In this document: positions 11,073-27,387 of the stretch, piece after piece
Numbering within the stretch: the first letter of the stretch is position 1
Layout: the number at the start of each line of letters is the position of its first letter
DNA from: a virus
IMG/VR virus record: IMGVR_UViG_3300017727_000043
Location: 1 to 37,681 of that record
DNA length: 37,681 bases
Direction: 5' to 3' (one strand)
Made by a program: the position numbers and the translations under genes
Notes under the pieces: model-generated
Told to the model about the DNA's origin: nothing
Database searches by the model: none
Seen by the model: only the letters and a program-made list of their open reading frames with translations

Positions 11073-12886
11073 AGATACCTCGTTATAACCAGAGTGTAAG
11101 CGGCATAAACAGTGGCAGAAGTTTGTCTACTGGTACGCAAGGTACAGCAGCAATAGCACAAGCAGGTGCTAGTGCAGTACAAGCTATAGCAAGCTATGCT
11201 CAAAGCAAGATTAAACTTGATGCACGGATGCGTGATCTTGAAATTCAAACCAAACACGAAGATGCTAATAATGTAACGCTTACAAAAGAAAGCGATTTGC
11301 TATTTGATATAGATAGCAATATGCGTACTGACTACAACAATTGGGAAACTGAGTGGAAAAAAACCATGGATGGCCTTGCGACAGAACGCAAGAAAACCAT
11401 GGATGACTATGAATGGAAAACATACAAACAGCAGCATGACCTTGATTACACTAATGGGCTACAAAAATTACGTGGCAGAACCGTTAAAATAAAATTAAAA
11501 GAAGCTGAACGATCATACGGTCAATCCAAAGTAGATTTTGAAAAAAAGATTAATAACGCTACTAGCGTAGCAGAAATAACAACTATTTTTGCAACCCAAA
11601 AAACATCAATGGATAGTAAACAAACATTGGGATTTTTGGGAGTAGAAGCCTATCAAACTGATATGGGCAATGCAATGGCATTGGCTAATCAGAAAATGGC
11701 ATTTCTTCAAATTACAAAACATAATGGTTTATCAATTCCGCCAGTAAAAAGACCTACAGGTGAAGACGCTACTAATTGGGAAGAACTAGCAAAAGCAGCA
11801 GAAAACGAAGACGTTACTATATCTACTGTAGACGGAAGAAAATTAGATGTTAACTCGCCTGAACGTCAGGCTTTAATAAAATATTACCGTGATAAAGATA
11901 CAGCCCAAGATGCGTTTTTTAAACAAGAAAAAGAAAAAATAAATTTAGTAGAAGAAAAGAAAATAACTGATGGCATTGTTGGAATGACAATATCAGGAGT
12001 GCCTAACCCTGCCTTGTTAGAGCAAATTCAAAAAAGTACGTTAGAACCAGCTACAAAAAGAACATTAGAAAACGCATATTCAACAGCTATATCTAATGCC
12101 TCAAGCAAAACAAAATCATGGAATACACAAGAAGGCTATACTGCTCAAATTTATTTGGATTCTTTAATTTACACTGGTGCTATTGATAGCAAGGAAGAAG
12201 GCCAAAAAGTAGTAATGTCTTTAGCTATGAAGGGATTGTTAGACCCAGATAAAGTAGCAAGTTATTATGAGCGTATAGATAAAAATATTAGAGGCAGAAA
12301 CGATTACAGAAACAATTTGGTTAAAGATGGTATAAGAACTTTAGTCACTGAAATTGGTGGTCAAACTGCTGGTTTTGATGCTGACATGGTAGATTTAAGA
12401 ACACTTGATGCAAATGATCCTGAATCGTTTAATGCGTTAATGAGTAAAATTAACGGCAAATGGACTATTGAAACTAAACGTGCTGTTGAAAACTTTTATG
12501 AATTGTTGCGAGAAGGTGAGAAAAACGGCTATTCTTATAACAATATGCTAGGCAACGCTAATAGCAGTAATTACATTCTAAATGATCTTGTCACATCATA
12601 TAAAGATCAAACGGTAAAAGCTAAAGGAACGCAACTTCAATCTGATATTGATGAGTATATTGCTCAACCAGATATATTCAAAAACAATGGGTTTTCCTAT
12701 AGGATTGATGCTGAAAAATGGGCTGGCAGCAGTATTAGAACTGACCCAACATCAGTAGATGTAGAAGTACCAGCAGTAAAAGAAAACGAATCAATTGCAG
12801 ATTATATAAAGCGAGTAGATGCTTTGCAAACTACTGATGCTGATACAGATGCAAGTCTGTCTTTGTACAGGGGAATGTATAACTAA
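11069..12886 (+). CDS. Internal virion (ejection) protein, T7 gp15-like position
   Basis: The 605-aa, largely helical protein contains a charged coiled-coil region after residue 50 (ARMRDLEIQTKHEDANNVTL) and further helical repeats. I do not recognise a catalytic motif. Order and size suggest the middle ejection protein that forms the periplasmic conduit with its neighbours. A 13-nt direct repeat (AAAACCATGGATG at 11360-11372 and 11393-11405) duplicates KKTMD at an 11-residue spacing, consistent with hendecad coiled-coil packing. It overlaps both neighbours (ATGA before, TAATG after). Confidence 0.7.
   Translation: MKIPRYNQSVSGINSGRSLSTGTQGTAAIAQAGASAVQAIASYAQSKIKLDARMRDLEIQTKHEDANNVTLTKESDLLFDIDSNMRTDYNNWETEWKKTMDGLATERKKTMDDYEWKTYKQQHDLDYTNGLQKLRGRTVKIKLKEAERSYGQSKVDFEKKINNATSVAEITTIFATQKTSMDSKQTLGFLGVEAYQTDMGNAMALANQKMAFLQITKHNGLSIPPVKRPTGEDATNWEELAKAAENEDVTISTVDGRKLDVNSPERQALIKYYRDKDTAQDAFFKQEKEKINLVEEKKITDGIVGMTISGVPNPALLEQIQKSTLEPATKRTLENAYSTAISNASSKTKSWNTQEGYTAQIYLDSLIYTGAIDSKEEGQKVVMSLAMKGLLDPDKVASYYERIDKNIRGRNDYRNNLVKDGIRTLVTEIGGQTAGFDADMVDLRTLDANDPESFNALMSKINGKWTIETKRAVENFYELLREGEKNGYSYNNMLGNANSSNYILNDLVTSYKDQTVKAKGTQLQSDIDEYIAQPDIFKNNGFSYRIDAEKWAGSSIRTDPTSVDVEVPAVKENESIADYIKRVDALQTTDADTDASLSLYRGMYN
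11360..11405 (+). repeat. 13-nt direct repeat inside the ejection protein gene
   Basis: AAAACCATGGATG occurs at 11360-11372 and 11393-11405, 33 nt apart, giving two KKTMD copies 11 codons apart in the coiled-coil region. Confidence 0.8.
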
Positions 12887-15800
12887 TGAATGGCAAAATT
12901 ACAGCATTGCAATTACGTCAAGCAGGTTTCCCTGACGAGTTTGTATTAGATTACATTGAAGATCGTAGGCCATATTTAAAGCAAGCTGGCTTTACTGATA
13001 CTCAAATTAACAATCATTATGGAATTGAGCAGCAATATAACGGTGATTACGAAGACATTTTAGACAACCATGAATCTAATCAAGCTGTATTAACAAGCGA
13101 ACAGCATATTAGTAGCGGATCAGAAAGTTTTGCAGAAACGTTAACTGCTGAAAAAAAGGCACTTACAACAAATAAAAATGCAGAAACATCATTGTTACAA
13201 ACAGATGGACAACCTGTAAAAATAGAAAGCGGTGGCGAAGAAACAGCCGTAACTAATCAAGTAAATTCTGAAGCTAATTCTGTATTAGAAAATGCAGAAG
13301 TTGAAAGCAAAGAAAATGCTGACCCAATGGAAGCAACATTGTTCAATACGCAAATGTTGGGTAATTCAGAATTGCTGGCTAACGTAAACGCTGAAATAGA
13401 AAATGCTACTGAAGAAGGCGTAATGTTCTATGACCAGCTTACAGATGGTCAAAAAAAGATTTACAACCGAAACAGAAGGCCGCCAGCAGGTATCACTAAA
13501 ATTTTGTTTAGGGATGAAGAAGGTGTTACGGAAGAAGAAAAAGATAAAATGGGTGTGCTGCATACAGGTTACACCACAGGCAAATACACTGTAAATTATC
13601 AGGAAAAATTAATTTCAGATGGCATAACAGATTATTTTGGTGCAAAAACTCTTAATGAATATGCGTCATTTGTTGCACGTTTTGAAAGTGACAACGCAAA
13701 TATTATTAATGATGACAATACAAAATCTGGTCTTTGGCAACTTAACAATGAAGAATTGCCTAGTTTAATTCAAACATGGATTAACGACCAAAAATTAATT
13801 AACCCTGAGTTTAAAGTACCGCCTCAATTAAAGGAGGCAATGGTACATAAAAATGCAGCGAAATTGCCTATACCATTACAAAGAACCTTGTTTTGGGCAA
13901 AAATGCTTAACACAGATGGAATGGAAGATTTGCTACCACGTATTGCAAAGGGCGATAAAGTAGCAATGGCGGAAGGTTTAAATTTAATAAACCCACCTTC
14001 TATAAGAACACGATCTGAGCAAATAGAAAAAAACAAAAGAAGAATTACAGACATTATTGTAGATATGGCTCAATCAACTGCAATGAACGCTACAGGAATG
14101 GGCATGGGAATGAACCCATATGGCGACCCAGAGTTGTTGGAAGCTGAACTAAAAGAACTGCAAGATGCTACTACCAAATTAGAAAATGGTATCAACCAAG
14201 AAACATATGATTCAGCATTAGCAAATAAAACAGCTATACAAGAGCGTCTGCAAGAGATTAACAGGCTAATTGACACAGAAAACTATATGCAAGACGTTTC
14301 ATTGGATGCAATGGAACAGGGCATAAACACTGGTGATATAGAAGGTGCAGAAGACGAAGGCGAAGCTGCTCTTGAAAGACAAAAAAGATTAGAAAAACTT
14401 TCAAAAGAGCGTGAAGAATTAACAAAACAATTAGAAGAAACAGACAATGTATTACAAACAAATGTAGTGCCTGATGAATTTGTTGTTCCAAGACCTAACT
14501 TTGATGAACGTTCAGGCGAAACATTTAATGAATTTAACACTGCAAACTACAAATACCAATTACCTGAACTGGCATCTTTTAGCCAAGATGGTGTGGATTG
14601 GTGGGTAACTGAAAAACTAATTGAATCAGGTGCAGGTAAGTTTGTAAGATATTCAGGTGGTGCAGGGCCAAATACAGTATGGCAAAAAGGTGCAACTATG
14701 TCGGTTGCAGGGTTGGTGGCTCATTTTCATCAATTAGTTACTGTAGATGGTATGACACCTACAGAAGCCTACCAAGAAACGTTTATGTGGCAAACACAAA
14801 GTTTCGGGCAAGACATACTGCAATCAACTGCAACAATGGCATTAGACTTTCCCCTTATGGTAGGTGGGTGCGTTGCATTAAATGCAGGTGCAGGTCTAGC
14901 TACAGGCGGTGGATCAGCAGTATTAGCACCAGTAATATGCGGTGCAGGTGCGTTTGCTGTACCAGAAATGCTGCGTGATATTTACATGAGGGCTTTATCT
15001 GAAGGTAAAGTGTACAGCATGGGTGAGGTTATGGAACAATTGTTCAAAGCCGAAACATTTAAAACAGGGATCAAATACGGAACAATAGGTGGGGCAACAG
15101 CAGGTACAGGCCAATTTTTTAGATTAGCTGGTCAAGGTCTAAAACCTTTTGTATTGCCAAATGCCGCTTTGCAACAAGGGGCAAAGTATAACAAAAAGGG
15201 TGAATTGATCCTTACTAAAGGTGGTGCTGAAAAAGTATATGACGTTGCTACAACAGGTGCAGCTTATAGTGCCGAAATAGGAACAATGGTTACCCTTACG
15301 TCTATTTTTAATGGCGTAGCACCTACACGACATGATTTTGCTCACGCAGCCGTAATGATATTTGGCATGAATAGAGCACAAAAGGGCATGGGGTGGTTAG
15401 GCGAAATTTACCGTAAATACGGGTGGCATCCTAAAGATGTATATACACTTACTAAAAATCGTCCTGATATTAAAAACGAATTGCAACGTGGTGAAGAACC
15501 TGAATTCTTTATCAATCAATCACAAGCAATGCTTAACAAAATGGAAACGGCAACAGATACTAAATTTGTGCCAGAACCTAAATTTGAATTAGGCACAGTA
15601 GTTAATACATCTGCAAGCAGTACATCGACAGGAAAGGTTGTAGGACGCAGAACTGATAAGGATGGGCAATACGAATTAGAAATTCAAAAAGAAAATACAG
15701 GGGAAAGAGTTTTTGTCAAAGAGGCAGAAGTTACAGCCCATGAGCCTGTTGGCACAACAAAAGTAGAAGTAGACGCTAACGGCAAAGTAACGGTTACAAA

Positions 15801-18800
15801 CGAAGTCCGTACTGACTTTAAAGAACAGCAAGTTAAAAAAGTGTTTGAACCTGATGTTGTAGAAGTAGTGCAGCCAACAGTAACAGTAAAAAATAAAGCT
15901 ACAGGCAAAGATGTAGAAGTTAAAAAATCAGAAACTAGATTCAAAGAAGAAGTTGAAACAGAGGTAAAATCAGAACAAAAGTCAGAAACGTTTTTTAAAG
16001 ACCCAGACGCTACAATAGTAACAACCAAAAATGCTGCTGGTACTAAAGATGTTTTCTTTGATGTAGCTGCGTTTCCTTTGTTAGCAAAAATATTTAAAAA
16101 ATCAGCAAAAGAAACTGGTTCAACAAACAAACCAATAAAGGCTAACAGCAAAGGTGCGTTTTTTGAATTGGTTATGGGAAAGATACCATCTTCCAAATTT
16201 GTAGAAGTTGACCCTGTTTTTGGAATAAAGGCTGGCGGCACAACAGGTGCTAAATTTGACATGATTGTGCTGAAATCAGCAGGTAAAGAATTTATTGCTG
16301 TACCTAAAGACATATACAACGCAATTATTAGATATGTAGAACGTGGTGCTTTTAATAGAAAAATTGGCAAAGATGCAGAGGTTCAAGTAAATAATAGTGG
16401 AGTTGTGGTTTTAAGTGGCAAAGGGGAAGTTATTGCTGCCGTAAGGGGTAAAGTATTACAGGGCAAGATGAAGGAACAAGCCGAATACTATTACGAAAAT
16501 TATAAACGGGATAGCGATAAAACATATTACGATCATTCAAAAAGTGATGGTAGCCCTTGGGGTGCACCTAATGAAGTAGCCCCATCTGAAGTAACTATTA
16601 ACGCAGCATGGAAAGACTTGTTTAGAGAGGGTCTTGATACATTTGATTTAGTTGCCCTTACAGAAGTGTTAATTAATCAAACACCACAAGTAAAACGTAT
16701 GAAGTCTAATCTACGTGGATACTTTAAATCTATCACCCAGCCAGACGGTAAAGTTAATCCTAAACAGTTAGAAGTGGCTGTTAATAGGGCTTTGCAAGAA
16801 AACCCTAAAGATTTTACTATGACCCTTGCTCACGAAATTGGTCATTTGTTGGACTATTTGCCTCAAGCAACAATAGGCAAAAACAACATTCTTGGGCGTA
16901 TGGCTGCAATGAAAAAGTATATGAACGAATGGATTGATGCTACAGGCAAAGACGGAACGTTGCCTACTAAAGCAGAAATAGCAGAGATTAGAACAAAAGC
17001 AGAAGCAGAAGCAGCTAAAAATTTAAACAAAACAGACAAAGAGATTGAAACTAAATTAGAGATCAAGCCTGAAGAAATACTAGATATATTTCGTGACCCT
17101 GATATTAGGGCTAGGATTGACCCTGAATTTTACGATGCTTTTATAGGATTAAGCGGTGCTTTAAAAAAGCAAATAACTAAGACCGCAATGCGTAAAATGA
17201 TTGACCCACATATTAAAAGTATTGTGGAAGGCATAAACGCTAAACGTGCAAAACGTCCTGATGTTTCAGATGCAGCATTACGTAAAGAAGCTAATGATGT
17301 GTTTGCAAGAATGATGCAAAGGGAAATGACTGAGCGTGGTCTTGTAGATATATCTATTATCACAAAAGAACTGCAAAAGTTATCAGCTACATGGAAGCCT
17401 TTTAACAGGCAAAACGATCCAAAATACACTAAGTACCGTGATAGCAGTCCTGAATTAATGGCTGATTTTATGATGGCTTTCTTATTGCGTCCAAATTGGA
17501 CATATGTAAATGCCCCAAGGTCAAGCGAGTTGTTTTTAAATTATATGTCAAAACGTCCTGAAGTTATGGATGCGTTAAAGGATATACAATTTAAAATGGT
17601 AGCTGGTAAGTCTGCTAGGTTTGAAGAAGTTTATACAAGCCTTATGAACATGACAAAGACCAGTAACCGAAAAGTAGCGGAAGCTATGGAAAACGTCTTT
17701 AAAGAAAACAACGTAGATAATTTCAATGTTCAATACATTGATACTATGGGTTGGTTCTACAGACGCTTTCAAGGGCCAGAAGGGGGAACATTCCAATTAG
17801 GCAAAGGCCGTTGGATGGATAGCGAAACGCTAAACTTAAATTACAGAATGGAAAACTGGCGTTACCAGCAAGGCTTTATGGAACAATACATGGGCAATAT
17901 GCAACGTATTGTGCGTAACCTAGAAGATATGAATTTGCCAATAGAAGCATTTTCAACAATGCTTATTTTACGTAACTTAGCTATGAGTAAGCAACGTGCT
18001 GGCATGGCAAGCCCTAAAGGTTTGTGGGCAGAACTAAAAAGAGTAGACCCTGACGGTACGATAATACGTAACGAAATTGAGGGTGGACGTTCTGCGATGG
18101 AACTCTACAAAGAATTTAAAAAGAATCACCCTGCCTTAGATAAAGCTGCAACTGATTTTTATGCAGTAAGAATGGATTACATGGGTGAGTTGTTTAAATC
18201 TAGTCTGATGTTTAGCCGTAAACAAGTTAAAGAATTATTGGATAATGTTGAATACATATCCTTCAATAACCTAAAATCTTTGTTAAATCGTATTGATAAG
18301 TACGGTGTACAGACATTAGCTAACTCTAAAATAATGAAAACTAAAGGCACGTTTGAGCCTGTAGCTGATGTATTGTTGTCAACGGTACAAAAAGATTTGA
18401 TGCTTATTGATGCAATGAAGATGAACCGTGCCAAGTTAACTGCAATCCAATGGATGCAAAAGAACAAGGGATGGTTAGAAACTTTTGATGTAGCTAAAGC
18501 AGGTGAAAAAGATAGGGTTATACAAAAAGCTAAATACATTAGCAAAGGTGTAGTAGAGCCAGCCCCAACAGGAATGACTACTGTATCAGTCATGCGTCTT
18601 GGCAAACTAGAGTATTGGCACATGAATAAATTTGCTGCCAAGTCTTTTGCAAGCAATAGTGTTAACGCAAACAACGTAGTTTTAAAAGTTGCACAAGCAG
18701 GTAACGATGTATTTAGGGGTATATTTACAGAATATAATCCCCGTTTTTGGTCTAAGAACTTAGTAAGAGATATTGAAAGAACTGTACGTAACTTAGAAGG

Positions 18801-20385
18801 TGCAGCATTTTTTACTAAAATAGACCTTAAAGGATTTAGTAATCCTAAAGAAGCTATGGTCTATCGAATAATGTCATCTAGTAAAGATGCTTTTAAAGGT
18901 ATGATGGGCGGCAACAAAACAGAAATTGTAAACTACATGGAGCGAAACGGTTTCTTGTTGTCTACAAAGGAAGGATACCAAACTAACGCAGGGAAAAATG
19001 CCGTTAGGGATGCAGAATCAAAAGGCTATATATCAAGGGATCAAGCTATATTAGAACAGTATATGTTGGAGTTTGGATTACCTGCCCAACATAGAAAATG
19101 GTTTAACAAAATAATAGACCCTGTAGCAATTCGTATGCAAGTTACAGCACGTGCATTAGATCGTATGCCTAAAATTGGTGCGTACAAAGCAATAAAAGAT
19201 GCAGTGAAAACTGGTAAGCTAAATATGAATGAGCGTGAAATGATGCTCAAGGTGCAGCAAGATTATGGTTCACCAGCGTTTTTGCGTACATCAGAATTTC
19301 ATTCAGTTACTAATAACTTCTTAATTTTCTACAATGCTATGAAAGAAGGTATTAGGGGTGACTACGTAAGATTCCGTGAAGACCCTAAGTCAGTAGGTCT
19401 GAAGTATCTTGGTTACGAACTTATGCCAAAAATGATACAGAAAGCAGCAGAACTAAACTTTTTAGGTGCTTGGGGCACAGCTTTCTACATGGGTATATCT
19501 GACTACGATAAAGCTAACTACATAGTGATACCTTTAGGATGGTACACAGACCCTAATAACGGATCAAAACTTCCTGTTTACATGAGATTGCCGCAAGACG
19601 AAAACGCTAGAATTATTAATAACCTTTGGTATAAAGGTTTTAATGCAATGATTGGTGACACACCTGATGATTTCTTGTCTACGTTTGTAGATAACACAGC
19701 GTTGTCGCCTAACCCTGCTGCCGAACTTATGTTGGATGCAGTAAATATGTTTGTCCATGGCGAAAACCCTGTAAGTAGTTGGACAGGTGATTTTGCTATT
19801 GATGAAGACGTATGGAAAGCAGACAACCATTACACTACAAAAGAAAAATACAGGTATATTTGGAACAATTATGGTGGGAACACTTTGTATAATTGGGAAG
19901 ATGTATCACGGGAAGAAGTATATGAAGGTCTTGCATCAGTCTTAAACACGCCAGTGGCAGGGCCATTGATACAAAACTTTGTTAAAATTGGTGATACACC
20001 AGCAGGTAATTCAAGCACATTTAAGAAAGACATGGATTTGTATGAAAAATCCCAAGCAGCTTTGAGGGTTGCGGCTCAAGAAGCAAAGAGAAAATTGTTT
20101 AACGGTAAGCAAGATACGATTACCGATGAAGAAAATGCTGCTTTTAATGCTTTGTTCCCAGAAGATATATTTCAAGACCCGTTGTTTAAAAGAATGGTAA
20201 CTAAAAAACTAGGTGGTTCAGAATTAGTTTCCATGTACATAACAACTAAGGATAAGAAAAAACGGTTGTTAATGTTAAAAGAGATTAAAAGATTAATGGG
20301 TATGCAGGTAGAAGGTGAGTTTAATACCTTTGATGGTGAGGAAATACCTATTAATTTTCCAAAGCAAGGTGAAGATGTTAACTAA
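12886..20385 (+). CDS. Giant internal virion protein with lytic-transglycosylase-like and zincin-like motifs
   Basis: At 2499 aa this takes one fifth of the window. By position it is the T7 gp16-type ejection protein, thrown into the host to pass DNA through the envelope. Near residue 267, FARFESDN followed about 15 residues later by SGLWQLN resembles the catalytic Glu motif of SLT-type transglycosylases. Residues 643-700 are hydrophobic and could cross the inner membrane. Residues 1314-1321 are LAHEIGHL, an HExxH zinc motif (H1316, E1317, H1320), and E1523 in SPELMADF is a plausible third ligand, as in the zincins of large polyvalent proteins. The rest is mostly helical with charged repeats (about 1000-1080). 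Start is a TAATG overlap. Confidence 0.85.
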   Translation: MNGKITALQLRQAGFPDEFVLDYIEDRRPYLKQAGFTDTQINNHYGIEQQYNGDYEDILDNHESNQAVLTSEQHISSGSESFAETLTAEKKALTTNKNAETSLLQTDGQPVKIESGGEETAVTNQVNSEANSVLENAEVESKENADPMEATLFNTQMLGNSELLANVNAEIENATEEGVMFYDQLTDGQKKIYNRNRRPPAGITKILFRDEEGVTEEEKDKMGVLHTGYTTGKYTVNYQEKLISDGITDYFGAKTLNEYASFVARFESDNANIINDDNTKSGLWQLNNEELPSLIQTWINDQKLINPEFKVPPQLKEAMVHKNAAKLPIPLQRTLFWAKMLNTDGMEDLLPRIAKGDKVAMAEGLNLINPPSIRTRSEQIEKNKRRITDIIVDMAQSTAMNATGMGMGMNPYGDPELLEAELKELQDATTKLENGINQETYDSALANKTAIQERLQEINRLIDTENYMQDVSLDAMEQGINTGDIEGAEDEGEAALERQKRLEKLSKEREELTKQLEETDNVLQTNVVPDEFVVPRPNFDERSGETFNEFNTANYKYQLPELASFSQDGVDWWVTEKLIESGAGKFVRYSGGAGPNTVWQKGATMSVAGLVAHFHQLVTVDGMTPTEAYQETFMWQTQSFGQDILQSTATMALDFPLMVGGCVALNAGAGLATGGGSAVLAPVICGAGAFAVPEMLRDIYMRALSEGKVYSMGEVMEQLFKAETFKTGIKYGTIGGATAGTGQFFRLAGQGLKPFVLPNAALQQGAKYNKKGELILTKGGAEKVYDVATTGAAYSAEIGTMVTLTSIFNGVAPTRHDFAHAAVMIFGMNRAQKGMGWLGEIYRKYGWHPKDVYTLTKNRPDIKNELQRGEEPEFFINQSQAMLNKMETATDTKFVPEPKFELGTVVNTSASSTSTGKVVGRRTDKDGQYELEIQKENTGERVFVKEAEVTAHEPVGTTKVEVDANGKVTVTNEVRTDFKEQQVKKVFEPDVVEVVQPTVTVKNKATGKDVEVKKSETRFKEEVETEVKSEQKSETFFKDPDATIVTTKNAAGTKDVFFDVAAFPLLAKIFKKSAKETGSTNKPIKANSKGAFFELVMGKIPSSKFVEVDPVFGIKAGGTTGAKFDMIVLKSAGKEFIAVPKDIYNAIIRYVERGAFNRKIGKDAEVQVNNSGVVVLSGKGEVIAAVRGKVLQGKMKEQAEYYYENYKRDSDKTYYDHSKSDGSPWGAPNEVAPSEVTINAAWKDLFREGLDTFDLVALTEVLINQTPQVKRMKSNLRGYFKSITQPDGKVNPKQLEVAVNRALQENPKDFTMTLAHEIGHLLDYLPQATIGKNNILGRMAAMKKYMNEWIDATGKDGTLPTKAEIAEIRTKAEAEAAKNLNKTDKEIETKLEIKPEEILDIFRDPDIRARIDPEFYDAFIGLSGALKKQITKTAMRKMIDPHIKSIVEGINAKRAKRPDVSDAALRKEANDVFARMMQREMTERGLVDISIITKELQKLSATWKPFNRQNDPKYTKYRDSSPELMADFMMAFLLRPNWTYVNAPRSSELFLNYMSKRPEVMDALKDIQFKMVAGKSARFEEVYTSLMNMTKTSNRKVAEAMENVFKENNVDNFNVQYIDTMGWFYRRFQGPEGGTFQLGKGRWMDSETLNLNYRMENWRYQQGFMEQYMGNMQRIVRNLEDMNLPIEAFSTMLILRNLAMSKQRAGMASPKGLWAELKRVDPDGTIIRNEIEGGRSAMELYKEFKKNHPALDKAATDFYAVRMDYMGELFKSSLMFSRKQVKELLDNVEYISFNNLKSLLNRIDKYGVQTLANSKIMKTKGTFEPVADVLLSTVQKDLMLIDAMKMNRAKLTAIQWMQKNKGWLETFDVAKAGEKDRVIQKAKYISKGVVEPAPTGMTTVSVMRLGKLEYWHMNKFAAKSFASNSVNANNVVLKVAQAGNDVFRGIFTEYNPRFWSKNLVRDIERTVRNLEGAAFFTKIDLKGFSNPKEAMVYRIMSSSKDAFKGMMGGNKTEIVNYMERNGFLLSTKEGYQTNAGKNAVRDAESKGYISRDQAILEQYMLEFGLPAQHRKWFNKIIDPVAIRMQVTARALDRMPKIGAYKAIKDAVKTGKLNMNEREMMLKVQQDYGSPAFLRTSEFHSVTNNFLIFYNAMKEGIRGDYVRFREDPKSVGLKYLGYELMPKMIQKAAELNFLGAWGTAFYMGISDYDKANYIVIPLGWYTDPNNGSKLPVYMRLPQDENARIINNLWYKGFNAMIGDTPDDFLSTFVDNTALSPNPAAELMLDAVNMFVHGENPVSSWTGDFAIDEDVWKADNHYTTKEKYRYIWNNYGGNTLYNWEDVSREEVYEGLASVLNTPVAGPLIQNFVKIGDTPAGNSSTFKKDMDLYEKSQAALRVAAQEAKRKLFNGKQDTITDEENAAFNALFPEDIFQDPLFKRMVTKKLGGSELVSMYITTKDKKKRLLMLKEIKRLMGMQVEGEFNTFDGEEIPINFPKQGEDVN

Positions 20386-20433: not shown

Positions 20434-21543
20434 ATGACTATATCGACAACAATCATTAAGAATAGTTATAATGGTGACGGGGTTGAAGCTGTCTTCCCTT
20501 ACAACTTCAAGGTTCTAAATGAAGCTGACATTGAAGTAATACTAAGGGCGGCAGACGGAACTGAAACTGTTAAAACGATTTCTACACACTATACCGTTAG
20601 CGGAGTAGGCGAAGCTACTGGCGGTAACGTTACATTTACGTCTGGCAACGAGCCAATAACAGGCGTAGCAAATGTAATCCTACGTAGAGCAACAAACCAA
20701 ACACAAACACTTGATCTTGTAGAAAACGATCCGTTCACAGCAGATAGCGTGGAAGGTGCGTTTGACAGGTCAATTGCAATTGCACAAGAACTGCAAGAAG
20801 CTGTTGATAGATCAATAAAGATTTCAAGAACAAATACTATGTCTTCTACAGAATTTACTGTAGATGCAGCTAACCGTGCAAACAAAGTGCTGGCCTTTGA
20901 TAGTGTTGGTGAATTGTCAATTGCACAAACATTAGGTGATTTTAAAGGCAATTGGTCAACAGCAACAGAGTTTGGTGAGCGAGATATTGTAAAAGATTCT
21001 AGCAACGATAACATTTATCTTTGCGTTATTGCACACACATCAACAGGCTCAACGCCTATTTCTAGTAATGCAGATGTAGCAAAGTGGGCATTAATTGTGG
21101 ATGCCGCATCAGCAGCATCAGCTTCAGCAACAGCAACAGCAAAAGCAGCAGAAGCATCAACCAGTGCAAATGAGGCAGAAGCAAGTGCCACGACTGCATC
21201 AGGTCATGCAGGTACAGCAGATGTAGCTAAAAATGCAGCAATAGCAGCAAAAGATGTAGCGGTATCAAGTAGTAATACAGCAACTACACAAGCTGGCATA
21301 GCAACAACAAAAGCAGGTGAAGCAGATTCAAGTGCAACATCAGCAGCCGCTTCTGCTGCGTCTGCTGCTGCGTCATCAGGTGGCGGTGTTGTAAAGGTGA
21401 CAACTAACGATACAAATGCTAACGTATTACAAGAACAGTTATTGGGCGGTCTAGGCATAAACTTGAGGGTGGAAAATGCTGGTGGCGATGAAAAATTAAG
21501 GATAGCATCAGATGCAATTATCTATGCTATAGCTTTAGGATAG
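20434..21543 (+). CDS. Short tail fibre / fibre adaptor with T7 gp17-type N terminus
   Basis: The 369-aa protein starts with a tail-binding domain like T7 gp17 (NSYNGDGVEAVFPYNFKVLN, then ILRRATNQTQ, ENDPFTADSVEGAFDRSI and QELQEAVDRSIKI). Residues 190-225 hold a small carbohydrate-binding-like SKGNWSTAT/YLC pattern, then about 85 residues of Ala/Ser/Thr-rich heptads (225-310) that should form a trimeric coiled coil. The C terminus is short, without a receptor-binding tip, so it probably acts as an adaptor joining the tail to the giant fibre encoded next. Shine-Dalgarno GGGGAAGA precedes the ATG. Confidence 0.85.
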   Translation: MTISTTIIKNSYNGDGVEAVFPYNFKVLNEADIEVILRAADGTETVKTISTHYTVSGVGEATGGNVTFTSGNEPITGVANVILRRATNQTQTLDLVENDPFTADSVEGAFDRSIAIAQELQEAVDRSIKISRTNTMSSTEFTVDAANRANKVLAFDSVGELSIAQTLGDFKGNWSTATEFGERDIVKDSSNDNIYLCVIAHTSTGSTPISSNADVAKWALIVDAASAASASATATAKAAEASTSANEAEASATTASGHAGTADVAKNAAIAAKDVAVSSSNTATTQAGIATTKAGEADSSATSAAASAASAAASSGGGVVKVTTNDTNANVLQEQLLGGLGINLRVENAGGDEKLRIASDAIIYAIALG

Positions 21544-21552
21544 GGGTATAAA

Positions 21553-24500
21553 ATGTCAAAGAAATTAATACACAAATACACGTTTGATGCTTCAGCTAAA
21601 AGCATAGTTGTAAATGATGTGATCGGTCAAAGCCGATTCTTAACGATTACCAACGTAACTACGAATCAAATTATCTTTGCATTTGCTGATGATGAACGTG
21701 GTGCAGCGTCATTTACGCAAGACCTAACTAACAAAACAACTACTCTTGTTCTTGATTACGACACCACATCAATGTCTGATACAGACAAACTGCAAATTTT
21801 TATTGAAAAAGACAGCACAGAAATGCGTCCTGACAAGACGTACACTGACCCTGTATCTAAATTTCGTGTATCCCAACCTCAAAACCTTATCGACACTGAC
21901 TTTGAATACGGTCTACAAAATACAAAATGGGAAACACTAGAACTAATTAAAAACATTCCTACGTTCTTTTCACGTAACGGTGATACAGATTTAGATGTAT
22001 CAACAATTACGACTACTGCTAACAGTAACCTTGTCACAGTGGTTACTACTATTGACCATGAACTTGTGCAGGGTAATCCTATTATTGTGCAAGGTACAGC
22101 ACGTAGCACGTGTAACGGTGGGTTTGTTGTTACAACAATTGTTAACGCAACTACGTTCCAATATGCTGCAAAAGCCGAAATACCTATTACACAAAATATT
22201 AAAGAAACTTATACACAAATATTTTTAGGTTCTATTTATCAAGGTACAGAATTTAAATTAGCTAACATTGATGGAATTGTTACTAACAATGCCAACCCTT
22301 CAAAGCTAACTGTACAAACAGATTTTCCATTAGGATTTAATAACGAAACATCTTTCTTTCTTACAAATTCCGTAGGTCAAAAAGTTGTTAATTTTAATTC
22401 AGCAAATACTACATTTGAAAATTTTGCTAACAGAGGCAAGTCAACAACAGTTAACGTTCCTACAGGTGAAGTTAATTCACACGCTATAGGTGCTGTTGAT
22501 ACTTGGAACTGGCAACCCATTCATAACCCAGCAGTGGGTCTTAATGTTAAATGGTTTGTTCAAGGCACAGGCGGAACAAGCACAATCACAGTAAACACGG
22601 CAGGTGGCGTAGAAACGATTACCTTTACTGATGGCCCACACGGATTTGCAGATGATGATTATGTTGTCTATTGGCATGGCGATGGTAATGGTGCGATGGG
22701 CGGTCTTACAGATACCCGTCCATATTACGTTAATGTTGTAGACGCTAATACTATTTATTTATCAACTAGCTTAAATGGCGGAAGGGTGAATTTAAGTAAC
22801 CACGGTACATTTGCTGGCGTATCACGATCTTGTTTTGTAACAGCTTTTGACCCAACCAACGCATATACAGCATCAGCACAAGAGCAACTTAGGTTTGCTA
22901 ACGAAGTGCCATTGATTGCAGCCGACCGCAGCCAAGCAGTGATTATGAACTACACCACTACTGGTGGTCTGCCCTACATGAACAATAGTGACAACTTGGC
23001 TACATATGAACAGCCAGATAGCACTATCTTGTATACTAAGAACGTTACTGTAGCAGGTGGGCGTACAACTTGTCAGTTTGCATACACACCAAATGGGGCT
23101 ACACGAAATATTAATAGTGGCACAGTAAATGGTGCAATGGTTCTTATTGAATTAAACCCAACAAGAAATTCTATTTGGTATGCGAACCACGGTTTGCAAG
23201 ACATGGATTTGATTAGGTTTGGTTCTTCATCTTCAAGTGTTCCATCAGGATTAACCCGTAATCAATATTACACAGTACAAGTAGTTAATGATAACCGCAT
23301 TAGATTTCGTCAGTACAACCAGACCAGTATACGTGAACTATCATCACAAGGTTCGGTAAGTGCTACAGTAGATTTTACAGGTTATTCTTACCAAGACGGG
23401 GCAGATTATTTAGACGGTACGCAAACAATCACACAGGCTGCGGAAACTGTTACATACGTTGTAACTGTTAATCCAAAAGCAAGTGACCCAGCAGCAAACG
23501 CTTTTTATATTAATGGGCAAGAAGCAGATACATTAGAATTACGTGAAGGGTCTACATACACATTTGATGTATCAGACGCTTCAGCAGCAGGTCACCCATT
23601 AAAATTCAGCACAACAGCAGATGGCACACACGGTGGCGGTAGCGAATATACTACTGGTATAACAGTATCAGGTACGCAAGGCGATGCAGGTGCAACAGTG
23701 ACATTCGTTGTGCCATCAAGCACAGCACAGCTTTACTATTATTGTTCTGTACACGCAGGTATGGGTGGCATTGCAAACACGCCAGCACCAACTACTACCA
23801 CACAAGGTCATGGTCTAAGTGAAGGCGATGCCGTTGTGTACACAGATGAAAGCGGAACAACTATTGGTGGGTTGTCTAATGCAGGTAGTTATTATGTAGC
23901 ACAGCCAACTACAAATACTTTGCAGTTATCTACAACAGCAACAGGATTTAGTGGTTCAGACGTTACTGTTAACAACGCTACAAGTGGCAACAATACAGCA
24001 GGATATTTATACAATTACGATTATGTACGTAAATCAAACCATGGGTTTTCTACAGGTGACCGTGTTCAATACACATCATCAGCAGCAGCAGTAGGCGGAT
24101 TGCGTAACGGTGGTTTTTATTACATCAGAGTTATTAACACTACTTATTTTTATGTGTACCGTACATTAGCAGGGGCACAAAGTAATGCTGCTTGGCCTGA
24201 TCGTATTCGATTTGGGTTGCCGTATTCAGGAACATCACGTTTCCGTCAAACAGATATTGTAGATTTAACAGCAGCAGGTACAGGTACACAAAAACTTACT
24301 GCATCAGTAGCAGGTGCATCAGATGGTGTGTATAACATTTCTAATGTTGTAGATTCTAATACATTTGAAATGCAAGCTAGTGGTCAAATACCTACAAGGG
24401 TAATTGCGTTTGATCCAGCATCTTCAGTGTACATTGAAAGCGATGCTATTCGTATTGCTGATCATTTCTTTAGAAGCGGATATGCAGTTACATACAATGA

Positions 24501-27387
24501 AGGCACAACCGCAACAGGTGGTCTTGTAGATGGAACAGTATATTATGTAATACGTAATTCAAAAAATTGGATTCATTTAGCAGCAACATATGACGATGCA
24601 ATTGATGGAACAGCTATTACCCTTACATCACAAGGCGTAGGGCAAGCAACGCTTTCTACTAACAATTTGATTGGTGAAGTAAAAGGGCAAGGCACAGTAT
24701 CTATTGATAATGAAACAGTGAAGTTAAACGGAAGTAATACAAACTTTACATCGTTCTTTAAAACAGGTGACAACATTTCATTGTACGAACCTGAAGCATA
24801 TACAGAACGTACAATATCATCAATGGATGATGCCAACGATACTTTTGATACATCTGTTAACCATGGATTTACTGATGGTGATCTTGTTATTTACGAGGCA
24901 ACTACATCAAGAACTGGTTTAACAAGTGGGGTGTTCTATTACATCAAAACTGTAGACGCAAACACGTTGTCACTTTATCCAACAAACGCTGATGCCGTTG
25001 CTGGCACTAACAAGATTGCAATTAGCGGTACGGGTTCAAGCGAAACTCTAAAGAAATTGACTAGCACGGGTTCAACTATTGAAGTTGATGTTGCAACGGT
25101 TCTTTCACCAACAAAAATTAATTTGTCTGAACCAGTAACAAGTACATTATCTGATATTGAATATTCTGTAGGAACTTCATTGTTGTTACGTTCAGATGGG
25201 TTTGCATTGCACAGACCTTTTGATGGTGGTGTAGAACTTATACCTTCAACAAACCCTGATAGTCAGATGATACGTCAGACACGTAAATATTTCCGTTACC
25301 AATCAGGTAAAGGTATTCAAGTATCCTTTGCTGTAAACTTTAGTCCAACTGTTCCAATTGAAAGAATTACAACAACAGGCGGTAACAAGTATGGATATAT
25401 TTACACTAAATTCCCACATCGTTTGTCCGTTGATTTACCTATAACAGTAAGAGATGTTCCAACAATAGGCGGCTTAAATTACTTTAATAAAAGTTACTTA
25501 ACTAGCCAAGTTGTAGATGATTACCAAGTACGTATAGCATTTCCTGAAGTAGAAATTACTGGATCACAAAGCGGTACAACATTAACAGTAACAAGCACAA
25601 GTGAGTATCAAGACAATGCTACACTTACTGGCTTGATTGCTGGTATGTCTATTAGCACACCAACGCCAACCAAAATTGTTCGACAGTTAACAGGAACTAC
25701 AGGCAGTTTAGGTACGTATGAAGTAGACATTTCTCAAACTGTTTCTAGTGGAACGTTTACTGCAAGTTACTATCCGCTAACGTCAACTAGCACAGGCGGC
25801 TATGGACATTATGAAGTAGATAGCTGGAACAACAGCCATTTGCGTTGCGGTTTATTTGATGATCAAAACGGTATGTTCTTTGAGTACGATGGACAAGACT
25901 TGTACGTATGCCGAAGAAAATCAATTAAGCAACTTTCAGGATCAGTCAGTGTAACGTTTGGCAGTGGTGCAGTTACAGGCACAAACACTAAATTTTCTAC
26001 ACAGGCACAAGTGGGTGGTTACCTTGTTATTCGTGGGCAAAGCTATCTTGTCACTAAGATTAGTGATGATAACAATTTAAACATTGCTCCATCATATCGT
26101 GGTGCTTCAGCAAATAACGTAATTGTTACAATAACTGAAACAATACGTGTGCCGCAATCACAATGGAATATTGATACAGCAGATGGTAATGGGCCAACAG
26201 GTTATGTCCTTGATATTCATACTATCCAAATGGCTTACATTGATTATTCATGGTACGGTGCAGGTAAAATTAGATTTGGATTTAAAGACCAAGAAGGTGA
26301 CGTTCAATACGTACACGCTTTCATACACAACAATTTAGAAACAGAAGCGTATATGCGTTCAGGCAATATGCCAGCACGTTACGACATTCAAAACGTAGGT
26401 AAACCAACATATGTACCTGCACTAGCCCATTGGGGTACGTCTGTAATTATGGACGGTAGGTATGATGATGACAAAGCGTACATCTTTACCGCTTCATCCA
26501 ATGACGTACAGGTTACAGGTGCAGCAACAGTAAGTGTTACAGGGCGAGTAGCTTACCGTAGTAATTATTATTATGGTCTTGTAAATAACAGGCTAAGACG
26601 TATTGGTTGGGCTTTAGAAACCAATCAGTCATCTTCTTACAACCAGCTAACAGAAGGTCAGGTAATTACTGGTGCAAACTTACAAAGCAATACAAAGGTT
26701 GTTAACCCTCAAGATAATAATTTCCCACAACAACCGTACTTGCCTGACATTCTTTCGTCACAAGGGTACAGTTATTCAGGGCAATCTACACGTAACCTTG
26801 TAGTTATTGATAAACAACCATCAACAACAGCAGGTTCAGATAGCACTTACACAGTAACTTTATCGGCAGCATCAACCCCTGTTAATATTGATGTACCGCT
26901 AATTACTGTACGATTAGCACCATCCGTAGATACCAATACAATTGGTAACTTAGGTGAGCGTGAAATTATCAACCGTATGCAGCTTATCTTAAATTCTGTA
27001 GGCATCTTATCCACTCACGCAGCAGAAGTTTCGTTACGATTAAATGGGCAAGTTGATAACGTTGATTGGAATTCTGTACAAAATCCTTCATTATCACAGT
27101 TAGTGTTCCACGGAACAGGTGATAGTATTACAGGCGGTACAGATGTTTACAGATTCCGTGTGCAAGGTGGTACAGGTGCATCAGCTAGACAGCCTGTATT
27201 GACTACAGAACAATTGGCAGAAGTTGCTACGTTAGGTAACGCTATTATGGGTGGTGATAATACTTTCCCTGATGGGCCAGATATTGTAACCGTGGTAGTA
27301 AGGCTAACAGAAGACCCTTCTACTGTATCAGCATCCAACCCATTCAATTCATCAGCACGTATATCGTGGTCAGAGAGCCAAGCATAA
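21553..27387 (+). CDS. Giant modular tail fibre with FCCH-like repeats and a cupredoxin-like domain
   Basis: The 1944-aa fibre follows the adaptor fibre, with TAGGGGTATAAA as leader. About eight modules share the pattern H-G/E-x-G-D-x-V....GG/GL....YYV....NT; their His residues are at 169, 363, 546, 753, 830, 971, 1104 and 1289. A cupredoxin-like domain spans about 634-743: it starts YVVTVNPKASDPAANAFYIN, has His681 in GHPLKF, and ends YYYCSVHAGMGG with C731, H734 and M737, a complete type-1 copper ligand set. Residues near 1040 and 1450 carry a second repeat type (V.G..T.F...F..GD). The last 170 residues (from DTNTIGNLGEREIINRMQL) look like a conserved fibre C terminus. Likely role: host adsorption; domain function unproven. 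Confidence 0.85.
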   Translation: MSKKLIHKYTFDASAKSIVVNDVIGQSRFLTITNVTTNQIIFAFADDERGAASFTQDLTNKTTTLVLDYDTTSMSDTDKLQIFIEKDSTEMRPDKTYTDPVSKFRVSQPQNLIDTDFEYGLQNTKWETLELIKNIPTFFSRNGDTDLDVSTITTTANSNLVTVVTTIDHELVQGNPIIVQGTARSTCNGGFVVTTIVNATTFQYAAKAEIPITQNIKETYTQIFLGSIYQGTEFKLANIDGIVTNNANPSKLTVQTDFPLGFNNETSFFLTNSVGQKVVNFNSANTTFENFANRGKSTTVNVPTGEVNSHAIGAVDTWNWQPIHNPAVGLNVKWFVQGTGGTSTITVNTAGGVETITFTDGPHGFADDDYVVYWHGDGNGAMGGLTDTRPYYVNVVDANTIYLSTSLNGGRVNLSNHGTFAGVSRSCFVTAFDPTNAYTASAQEQLRFANEVPLIAADRSQAVIMNYTTTGGLPYMNNSDNLATYEQPDSTILYTKNVTVAGGRTTCQFAYTPNGATRNINSGTVNGAMVLIELNPTRNSIWYANHGLQDMDLIRFGSSSSSVPSGLTRNQYYTVQVVNDNRIRFRQYNQTSIRELSSQGSVSATVDFTGYSYQDGADYLDGTQTITQAAETVTYVVTVNPKASDPAANAFYINGQEADTLELREGSTYTFDVSDASAAGHPLKFSTTADGTHGGGSEYTTGITVSGTQGDAGATVTFVVPSSTAQLYYYCSVHAGMGGIANTPAPTTTTQGHGLSEGDAVVYTDESGTTIGGLSNAGSYYVAQPTTNTLQLSTTATGFSGSDVTVNNATSGNNTAGYLYNYDYVRKSNHGFSTGDRVQYTSSAAAVGGLRNGGFYYIRVINTTYFYVYRTLAGAQSNAAWPDRIRFGLPYSGTSRFRQTDIVDLTAAGTGTQKLTASVAGASDGVYNISNVVDSNTFEMQASGQIPTRVIAFDPASSVYIESDAIRIADHFFRSGYAVTYNEGTTATGGLVDGTVYYVIRNSKNWIHLAATYDDAIDGTAITLTSQGVGQATLSTNNLIGEVKGQGTVSIDNETVKLNGSNTNFTSFFKTGDNISLYEPEAYTERTISSMDDANDTFDTSVNHGFTDGDLVIYEATTSRTGLTSGVFYYIKTVDANTLSLYPTNADAVAGTNKIAISGTGSSETLKKLTSTGSTIEVDVATVLSPTKINLSEPVTSTLSDIEYSVGTSLLLRSDGFALHRPFDGGVELIPSTNPDSQMIRQTRKYFRYQSGKGIQVSFAVNFSPTVPIERITTTGGNKYGYIYTKFPHRLSVDLPITVRDVPTIGGLNYFNKSYLTSQVVDDYQVRIAFPEVEITGSQSGTTLTVTSTSEYQDNATLTGLIAGMSISTPTPTKIVRQLTGTTGSLGTYEVDISQTVSSGTFTASYYPLTSTSTGGYGHYEVDSWNNSHLRCGLFDDQNGMFFEYDGQDLYVCRRKSIKQLSGSVSVTFGSGAVTGTNTKFSTQAQVGGYLVIRGQSYLVTKISDDNNLNIAPSYRGASANNVIVTITETIRVPQSQWNIDTADGNGPTGYVLDIHTIQMAYIDYSWYGAGKIRFGFKDQEGDVQYVHAFIHNNLETEAYMRSGNMPARYDIQNVGKPTYVPALAHWGTSVIMDGRYDDDKAYIFTASSNDVQVTGAATVSVTGRVAYRSNYYYGLVNNRLRRIGWALETNQSSSYNQLTEGQVITGANLQSNTKVVNPQDNNFPQQPYLPDILSSQGYSYSGQSTRNLVVIDKQPSTTAGSDSTYTVTLSAASTPVNIDVPLITVRLAPSVDTNTIGNLGEREIINRMQLILNSVGILSTHAAEVSLRLNGQVDNVDWNSVQNPSLSQLVFHGTGDSITGGTDVYRFRVQGGTGASARQPVLTTEQLAEVATLGNAIMGGDNTFPDGPDIVTVVVRLTEDPSTVSASNPFNSSARISWSESQA

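Follow-up and report, generated by a model that had tools for sequence, protein, structure and literature searches.

A cupredoxin domain with a predicted type-1 copper site inside a giant phage virion structural protein

We identified a cupredoxin domain inside a giant virion structural protein encoded by a virus genome of 37,681 bases, a complete IMG/VR record that was analyzed at its full length and is referred to here as the window. Residues ~634-743 of this 1944-aa protein are almost certainly a cupredoxin homologue with a complete type-1 copper site. Computational analysis established the fold, the identity and register of the ligands, their joint conservation, the cassette-like insertion of the domain, and its recurrence in unrelated marine phage virion proteins and in surface-type proteins of marine bacteria. 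This is a known fold with a known site, those of the classical cupredoxin superfamily, in a new setting, a phage virion protein. We know of no blue-copper metalloprotein class in virions, and no literature on cupredoxin or plastocyanin domains in phage virion proteins was found among open-licence papers. The features discussed below are the following:

20434-21543, + strand: T7-gp17-like tail fibre gene, 369 aa (PHROG tail and tail-fibre matches)
21553-27387, + strand: giant virion structural protein, 1944 aa, which carries the cassette (ORF call)
~23413-23805, + strand: inserted cassette, residues 621-751, ~131 aa (comparison with homologous giant proteins that do not have the domain)
23452-23781, + strand: cupredoxin domain, residues 634-743 of the 1944-aa protein (AlphaFold2, Foldseek and VIA, profile-to-PDB matches)
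23593-23595, + strand: His681, first predicted type-1 copper ligand, followed by Pro682 (invariant in the 107-member alignment; aligned on the plastocyanin ligand His)
23743-23745, + strand: Cys731, predicted thiolate copper ligand (invariant in the 107-member alignment; at a strand end; aligned on the plastocyanin and nitrite reductase Cys)
23752-23754, + strand: His734, second predicted His ligand (at least 90% conserved; aligned on the ligand His)
23761-23763, + strand: Met737, predicted axial ligand, in a C-x2-H-x2-M loop (at least 90% conserved; aligned on the ligand Met)

The cupredoxin domain and its predicted ligands

The initial annotation, made from the sequence alone, had proposed a cupredoxin-like domain at 23452-23781 with H681, C731, H734, and M737 as a type-1 ligand set. 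In the ORF translation, the four residues are at the claimed positions, and the coordinates fit the domain. Structure prediction also agreed with the proposal, as the predicted fold is a Greek-key beta sandwich and not another fold. AlphaFold2, run on the domain with 107 sequences, gave a mean pLDDT of 96.0 and a pTM of 0.88, and the model is all beta except for one short turn. H681 immediately precedes a strand; C731, the one cysteine of residues 634-743, is at a strand end; and H734 and M737 are in the next loop, which is, in this model, the cupredoxin layout. When a 321-aa insertion context was folded on 8 sequences, the cupredoxin was predicted confidently and its flanks poorly, for an overall pLDDT of 63.8.

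Comparison of the model with known structures led to copper proteins. Foldseek against the PDB, with modest E-values, had rusticyanin as its top match (E=9.9e-4), followed by AcoP. VIA-align gave Z scores that, at 7-9, only just exceed what the tool itself describes as common: 8.9 for the N-terminal cupredoxin of a three-domain nitrite reductase (2dv6), 8.4 for rusticyanin, 7.7 for auracyanin A, and 7.0 for a Synechococcus plastocyanin. A laccase was also among the best PDB fold matches. Among the VIA-align matches listed, 50 of 50 are copper proteins, and copper proteins dominate the Foldseek results as well, over the full length. The best fold matches (rusticyanin, AcoP, auracyanin, and the N-terminal nitrite reductase cupredoxin) all have type-1 copper, but they share only ~20% identity with the window domain, and none of them is part of a particle: they are periplasmic electron carriers or domains of enzymes. 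Since a common arrangement can produce VIA Z scores in this range, the sequence evidence matters.

A profile of the domain family, built from 107 relatives, matched PDB sequences of copper nitrite reductase (E=7.9e-6) and of plastocyanins (E=2e-3). In the profile alignment (HMMER), His681, Cys731, His734, and Met737 are in register with the type-1 ligands of plastocyanin and copper nitrite reductase, as expected for the complete ligand set that had been proposed. The cupredoxins were reached via the family profile only, since phmmer with the single window domain gave no match below E=1 among PDB sequences. At E≤0.01, members of the family gave NCBIfam matches to amicyanin (8), plastocyanin (6), and rusticyanin (2) and Pfam matches to Copper-bind (10). 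The At5g54830-like domain PF25489 was matched by 25 of the 107 members at this threshold (best E=6.6e-7), and the PF25489 match of the window domain itself is under the curated cut-off. The window domain had no curated Pfam, PHROGs, or NCBIfam match naming the domain, its PHROG matches being unspecific, and it did not reach the curated cut-offs of PF00127, PF13473, and TIGR02657. Because it misses the curated plastocyanin and azurin families, we consider it a separate, unnamed branch of the cupredoxin superfamily.

Like plastocyanin and amicyanin (TIGR02656, TIGR02657, PF00127), the window domain combines a Greek-key beta sandwich with a His...Cys-x2-His-x2-Met ligand pattern, and the length of its C-x2-H-x2-M loop is that of amicyanin. 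Some of its relatives give weak matches to these families, whereas the window domain gives none. It also differs from them in its location, a 1944-aa virion protein with no signal peptide and no known electron partner, and in the residue that follows the first His, which is Asn in plastocyanin and Pro in this family (82% of the representatives).

A chance occurrence of the motif was rejected, as H-x(40-60)-C-x2-H-x2-M is found once in the 1944-aa protein and is present in only 3 of 20,000 shuffles of that protein. Conservation is a stronger test than motif shuffling. Three residues (H681, Y729, and C731) do not vary across the diverse 107-member alignment, in which H734 and M737 reach at least 90% conservation; among 45 representatives of 60% identity clusters, the ligand columns are at conservation ranks 4, 5, 6, and 8 of 92. 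The viral and cellular relatives keep all four ligands in 226 of 234 cases when clustered at 90% identity, in 87 of 94 at 70%, and in 45 of 51 at 60%, so that the site is retained in homologues, as the original proposal required. Ligand loss tends to be joint: 7 sequences of the 90% clusters have two ligands or fewer (0.74 expected if losses were independent), as do 6 of the 70% clusters (1.5 expected), in permutation tests that ignore kinship and are therefore indicative. All 33 representatives from bacterial and archaeal contigs keep the four ligands. As a check on ascertainment, representatives free of motif-bearing search peptides were counted separately, and 174 of 180 keep all four ligands, with the proviso that a profile built on the domain family may under-detect decayed copies.

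The giant protein and its removable cassette

Judged from its genes, the window phage is a podoviral relative of the HTVC010P-type pelagiphages, and its major capsid protein and gene order both agree with that group. It shares 79% identity with Pelagibacter phage EXVC032P Baldr in the major capsid protein, and as far as the fibre region its structural genes follow the Baldr order. The T7-gp17-like fibre gene lies directly upstream of the gene for the 1944-aa protein. In a PHROG search, the latter matched phrog_5838 (E=7.9e-180) and also phrog_1645; its top PHROG is described as "virion structural protein" in the category head and packaging, and the fibre and baseplate matches are weaker. A "virion structural protein" of a cyanomyovirus is matched by the N- and C-terminal parts of the giant protein. 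It is plausible that the giant protein is a tail fibre. Of note, it contains repeated HG[LF]-x-x-GD-x-V-x-Y motifs at residues 753, 830, and 1104, as well as a weak Pfam match to a ubiquitin-E1 FCCH-like domain, which is probably a phage repeat domain and not a ubiquitin enzyme.

The limits of the insertion were set by homologous giant proteins that do not carry the domain. The Manatee Spring freshwater podovirus encodes a 1736-aa virion structural protein that is homologous to the 1944-aa protein and from which the cupredoxin is absent. Its residues 1-615 correspond to residues 1-620 of the window protein, and its residues 619-1196 to residues 752-1330; the piece that is absent is the cupredoxin with short linkers, ~131 aa. 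The giant proteins of marine viral contigs L399-L402 are also without the domain and show the same clean gap. Those of L395, L396 (with its near-duplicate L397), and L398 have the cupredoxin at the same site, and all of these carriers, at ~55-77% identity, keep the four ligands.

In the closest isolated relatives, which are Pelagibacter podoviruses, the cupredoxin is not in the giant protein but forms the end of the T7-like fibre. The T7-gp17-like fibre of Baldr and HTVC028P, a homologue of the product of window 20434-21543, has a C-terminal cupredoxin; the window and Baldr fibres are 61% identical over 283 aa, and the cupredoxin is at residues 613-703 of the Baldr protein. Within the contig DNA examined, no cupredoxin accompanies 79 of the 80 fibre-gene relatives, indicating that it is dispensable; only one (L404) has it, in a neighbouring protein. 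The carrier and non-carrier giant proteins, the fibre ends of Baldr and HTVC028P, and L404 together lead us to regard the module as sporadic and shuffled among fibre-region proteins.

Related domains in phages and cells

The initial annotation had mentioned similar strings in other marine phage and bacterial proteins, and both turned out to exist. Using tblastn (E≤1e-3), the domain was found in 301 of 50,697 phage records, almost all of them marine, with carriers that include Synechococcus and Prochlorococcus phages, four Pelagibacter phages, and four Methylophilales phages. A scan of IMG/VR confirmed at least 586 relatives, to which four more scans with divergent members added others. Bacterial and archaeal genome contigs yielded 39 loci in a scan with a 12-row alignment, the 107-row alignment being too diverse for this purpose. 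Plasmids gave no match to the domain.

In the Kyanoviridae, a phage can have as many as five copies, which are located in proteins of the tail and baseplate. Five matches each were found in P-SSM2, where they include proteins annotated as tail fibre and tail spike, in P-HM2, and in S-SM1, where they include a copy with all ligands in gp9 (baseplate wedge tail fibre connector). In S-TIM66, the domain is part of a structural protein whose gene is close to that of the portal. Some copies have decayed sites: the S-SM1 "structural protein" SSM1_042 contains a ligand-less copy, a copy in ACG-2014b has lost its ligands, and cyanophage PSS2 encodes a stand-alone 112-aa ORF (CSPG_00077, L090:5019-5357) that is the domain alone, with three of the four ligands lost. 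Since these copies keep the domain without all or most of the ligands, the scaffold has metal-free uses. The virion proteome of S-CREM2 has been published (PMC10665884); in the genome stretch examined, the detected baseplate and fibre proteins of this phage have no such domain, and one weak match elsewhere is without ligands.

Among the cellular loci, the SAR86 contigs L374, L381, and L384 encode small lipoproteins with a lipobox-like N-terminus, a glycine run, and one cupredoxin each, which are apparently unstudied bacterial surface cupredoxins. A marine Euryarchaeota MAG (L369, PBUX01000034.1) encodes a lipoprotein-like archaeal protein in which collagen-like GPP repeats are followed by a four-ligand cupredoxin, and in L373 and L376 (Woeseiaceae/SAR86) the domain is at the C-terminus of the protein. 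Short proteins of L353 and L358, whose MAGs are labelled as Porticoccaceae and SAR116, combine an N-terminal module of the "SGFRYPL...LVGPD" type with a C-terminal cupredoxin; as these proteins resemble phage structural proteins, the contigs are probably viral. In a tree of weak resolution, viral and cellular domain sequences are intermingled, a pattern that suggests repeated exchange.

Possible roles of the copper-type site

The initial annotation had suggested three roles, namely stabilisation of the fibre, redox sensing, and docking onto a host cuproprotein receptor. We think that copper is probably bound in the mature virion. The reading we favour, while giving it about an even chance of being right, is that the domain is a copper-binding accessory surface module that aids host binding or the endurance of the virion in seawater. 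The cupredoxin would be exposed in the tail or fibre region and would bind one copper ion outside the reducing cytoplasm, acquired in the envelope of the host, during lysis, or from seawater. The metal would lock the exposed beta sandwich and ligand loop into a stable form, and the stabilised domain could then contact the host envelope or protect the virion. A copper-dependent surface module is favoured because the domain is found in adhesion-region proteins, is gained and lost sporadically, and retains its ligands. Studied type-1 sites, on the other hand, usually transfer electrons and do not staple folds, which counts against this reading, as do the ligand-less copies and the dispensability of the module; that the role is one of copper-dependent surface binding or stabilisation, rather than electron transfer, is put forward tentatively.

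The site could instead be a redox-active electron-transfer module, in which Cu(I)/Cu(II) would sense the redox chain of the envelope or host, or quench oxidants, and thereby trigger or protect the virion. Electron-transfer cupredoxins keep this very combination of a full ligand set, axial Met included, with a loop of amicyanin length. The Pro that follows His681, reminiscent of laccase and CotA T1 sites, also suggests a raised potential, and a fairly high redox potential is offered here as a testable guess. However, no partner, second redox centre, or conserved docking patch was identified, and the domain is isolated in large structural proteins, now terminal and now internal; we consider such a role decidedly unlikely. 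A plain beta-sandwich decoration domain with no metal role, in which the His/Cys/His/Met residues would be ancestral core residues or would bind zinc or nothing in vivo, seems very unlikely. The other core residues F671, Y729, Y669, G666, and L727 are equally conserved and ligand-less copies exist, but decaying sites lose their ligands together while the domain match persists, which fits joint selection, and it is hard to see what an axial Met would do in a site that held zinc or was purely structural.

By analogy with iron, the domain might also act as a copper "Trojan horse", copying host surface cupredoxins and docking on their envelope partner, such as copper uptake or oxidase machinery. 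The same domain is found in SAR86 lipoproteins and other surface-type proteins, cellular and viral sequences are interleaved in the tree, and the cassette moves among fibre-region proteins. A precedent, the nearest idea found in the literature, has been proposed in the tail fibre of an Alteromonas phage, with iron on HxH sites (PMC11705849). This proposal and the Ferrojan Horse idea likewise put a metal site on the adhesive part of marine phages, but they concern iron on HxH motifs, whereas the window domain is a cupredoxin with a copper-type site. Since the domain is also in the baseplate connector gp9 and in the near-portal protein of S-TIM66, it need not face a receptor, and we regard mimicry of this kind as unlikely.

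Related domains occur in hundreds of marine phages, and copper may therefore have a function in the particles of many ocean viruses. If copper is bound, blue-copper domains are carried on the particles of pelagiphages and cyanophages, which are among the ocean's most abundant viruses, the metal makes a phage surface module accessible to spectroscopy, and trace-metal chemistry is tied to infection. A domain now labelled only "hypothetical", "structural", or "tail fibre" would thereby gain a meaning. The natural carrier and non-carrier versions of the giant protein make the copper question directly testable. We view as doubtful the broadest proposal, namely that a widespread copper-loaded cupredoxin family in marine phage particles is shared with host surface lipoproteins, and that copper from the host envelope or seawater is needed for adsorption or the triggering of infection. 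Should copper be needed in this way, the domain would be for copper what the proposed Trojan horse is for iron, and would link ocean copper chemistry to phage host range.

Two other genes of the window may be mentioned. The 2499-aa ORF at 12886-20385, which had zero PHROG matches at E≤1e-3, is ~30% identical to a 2329-aa hypothetical protein of Baldr. An Acyl-CoA N-acyltransferase-like gene at 2395-2829 has the terminase on one side and the head-tail connector on the other, and Baldr encodes a putative acetyltransferase at the equivalent position.
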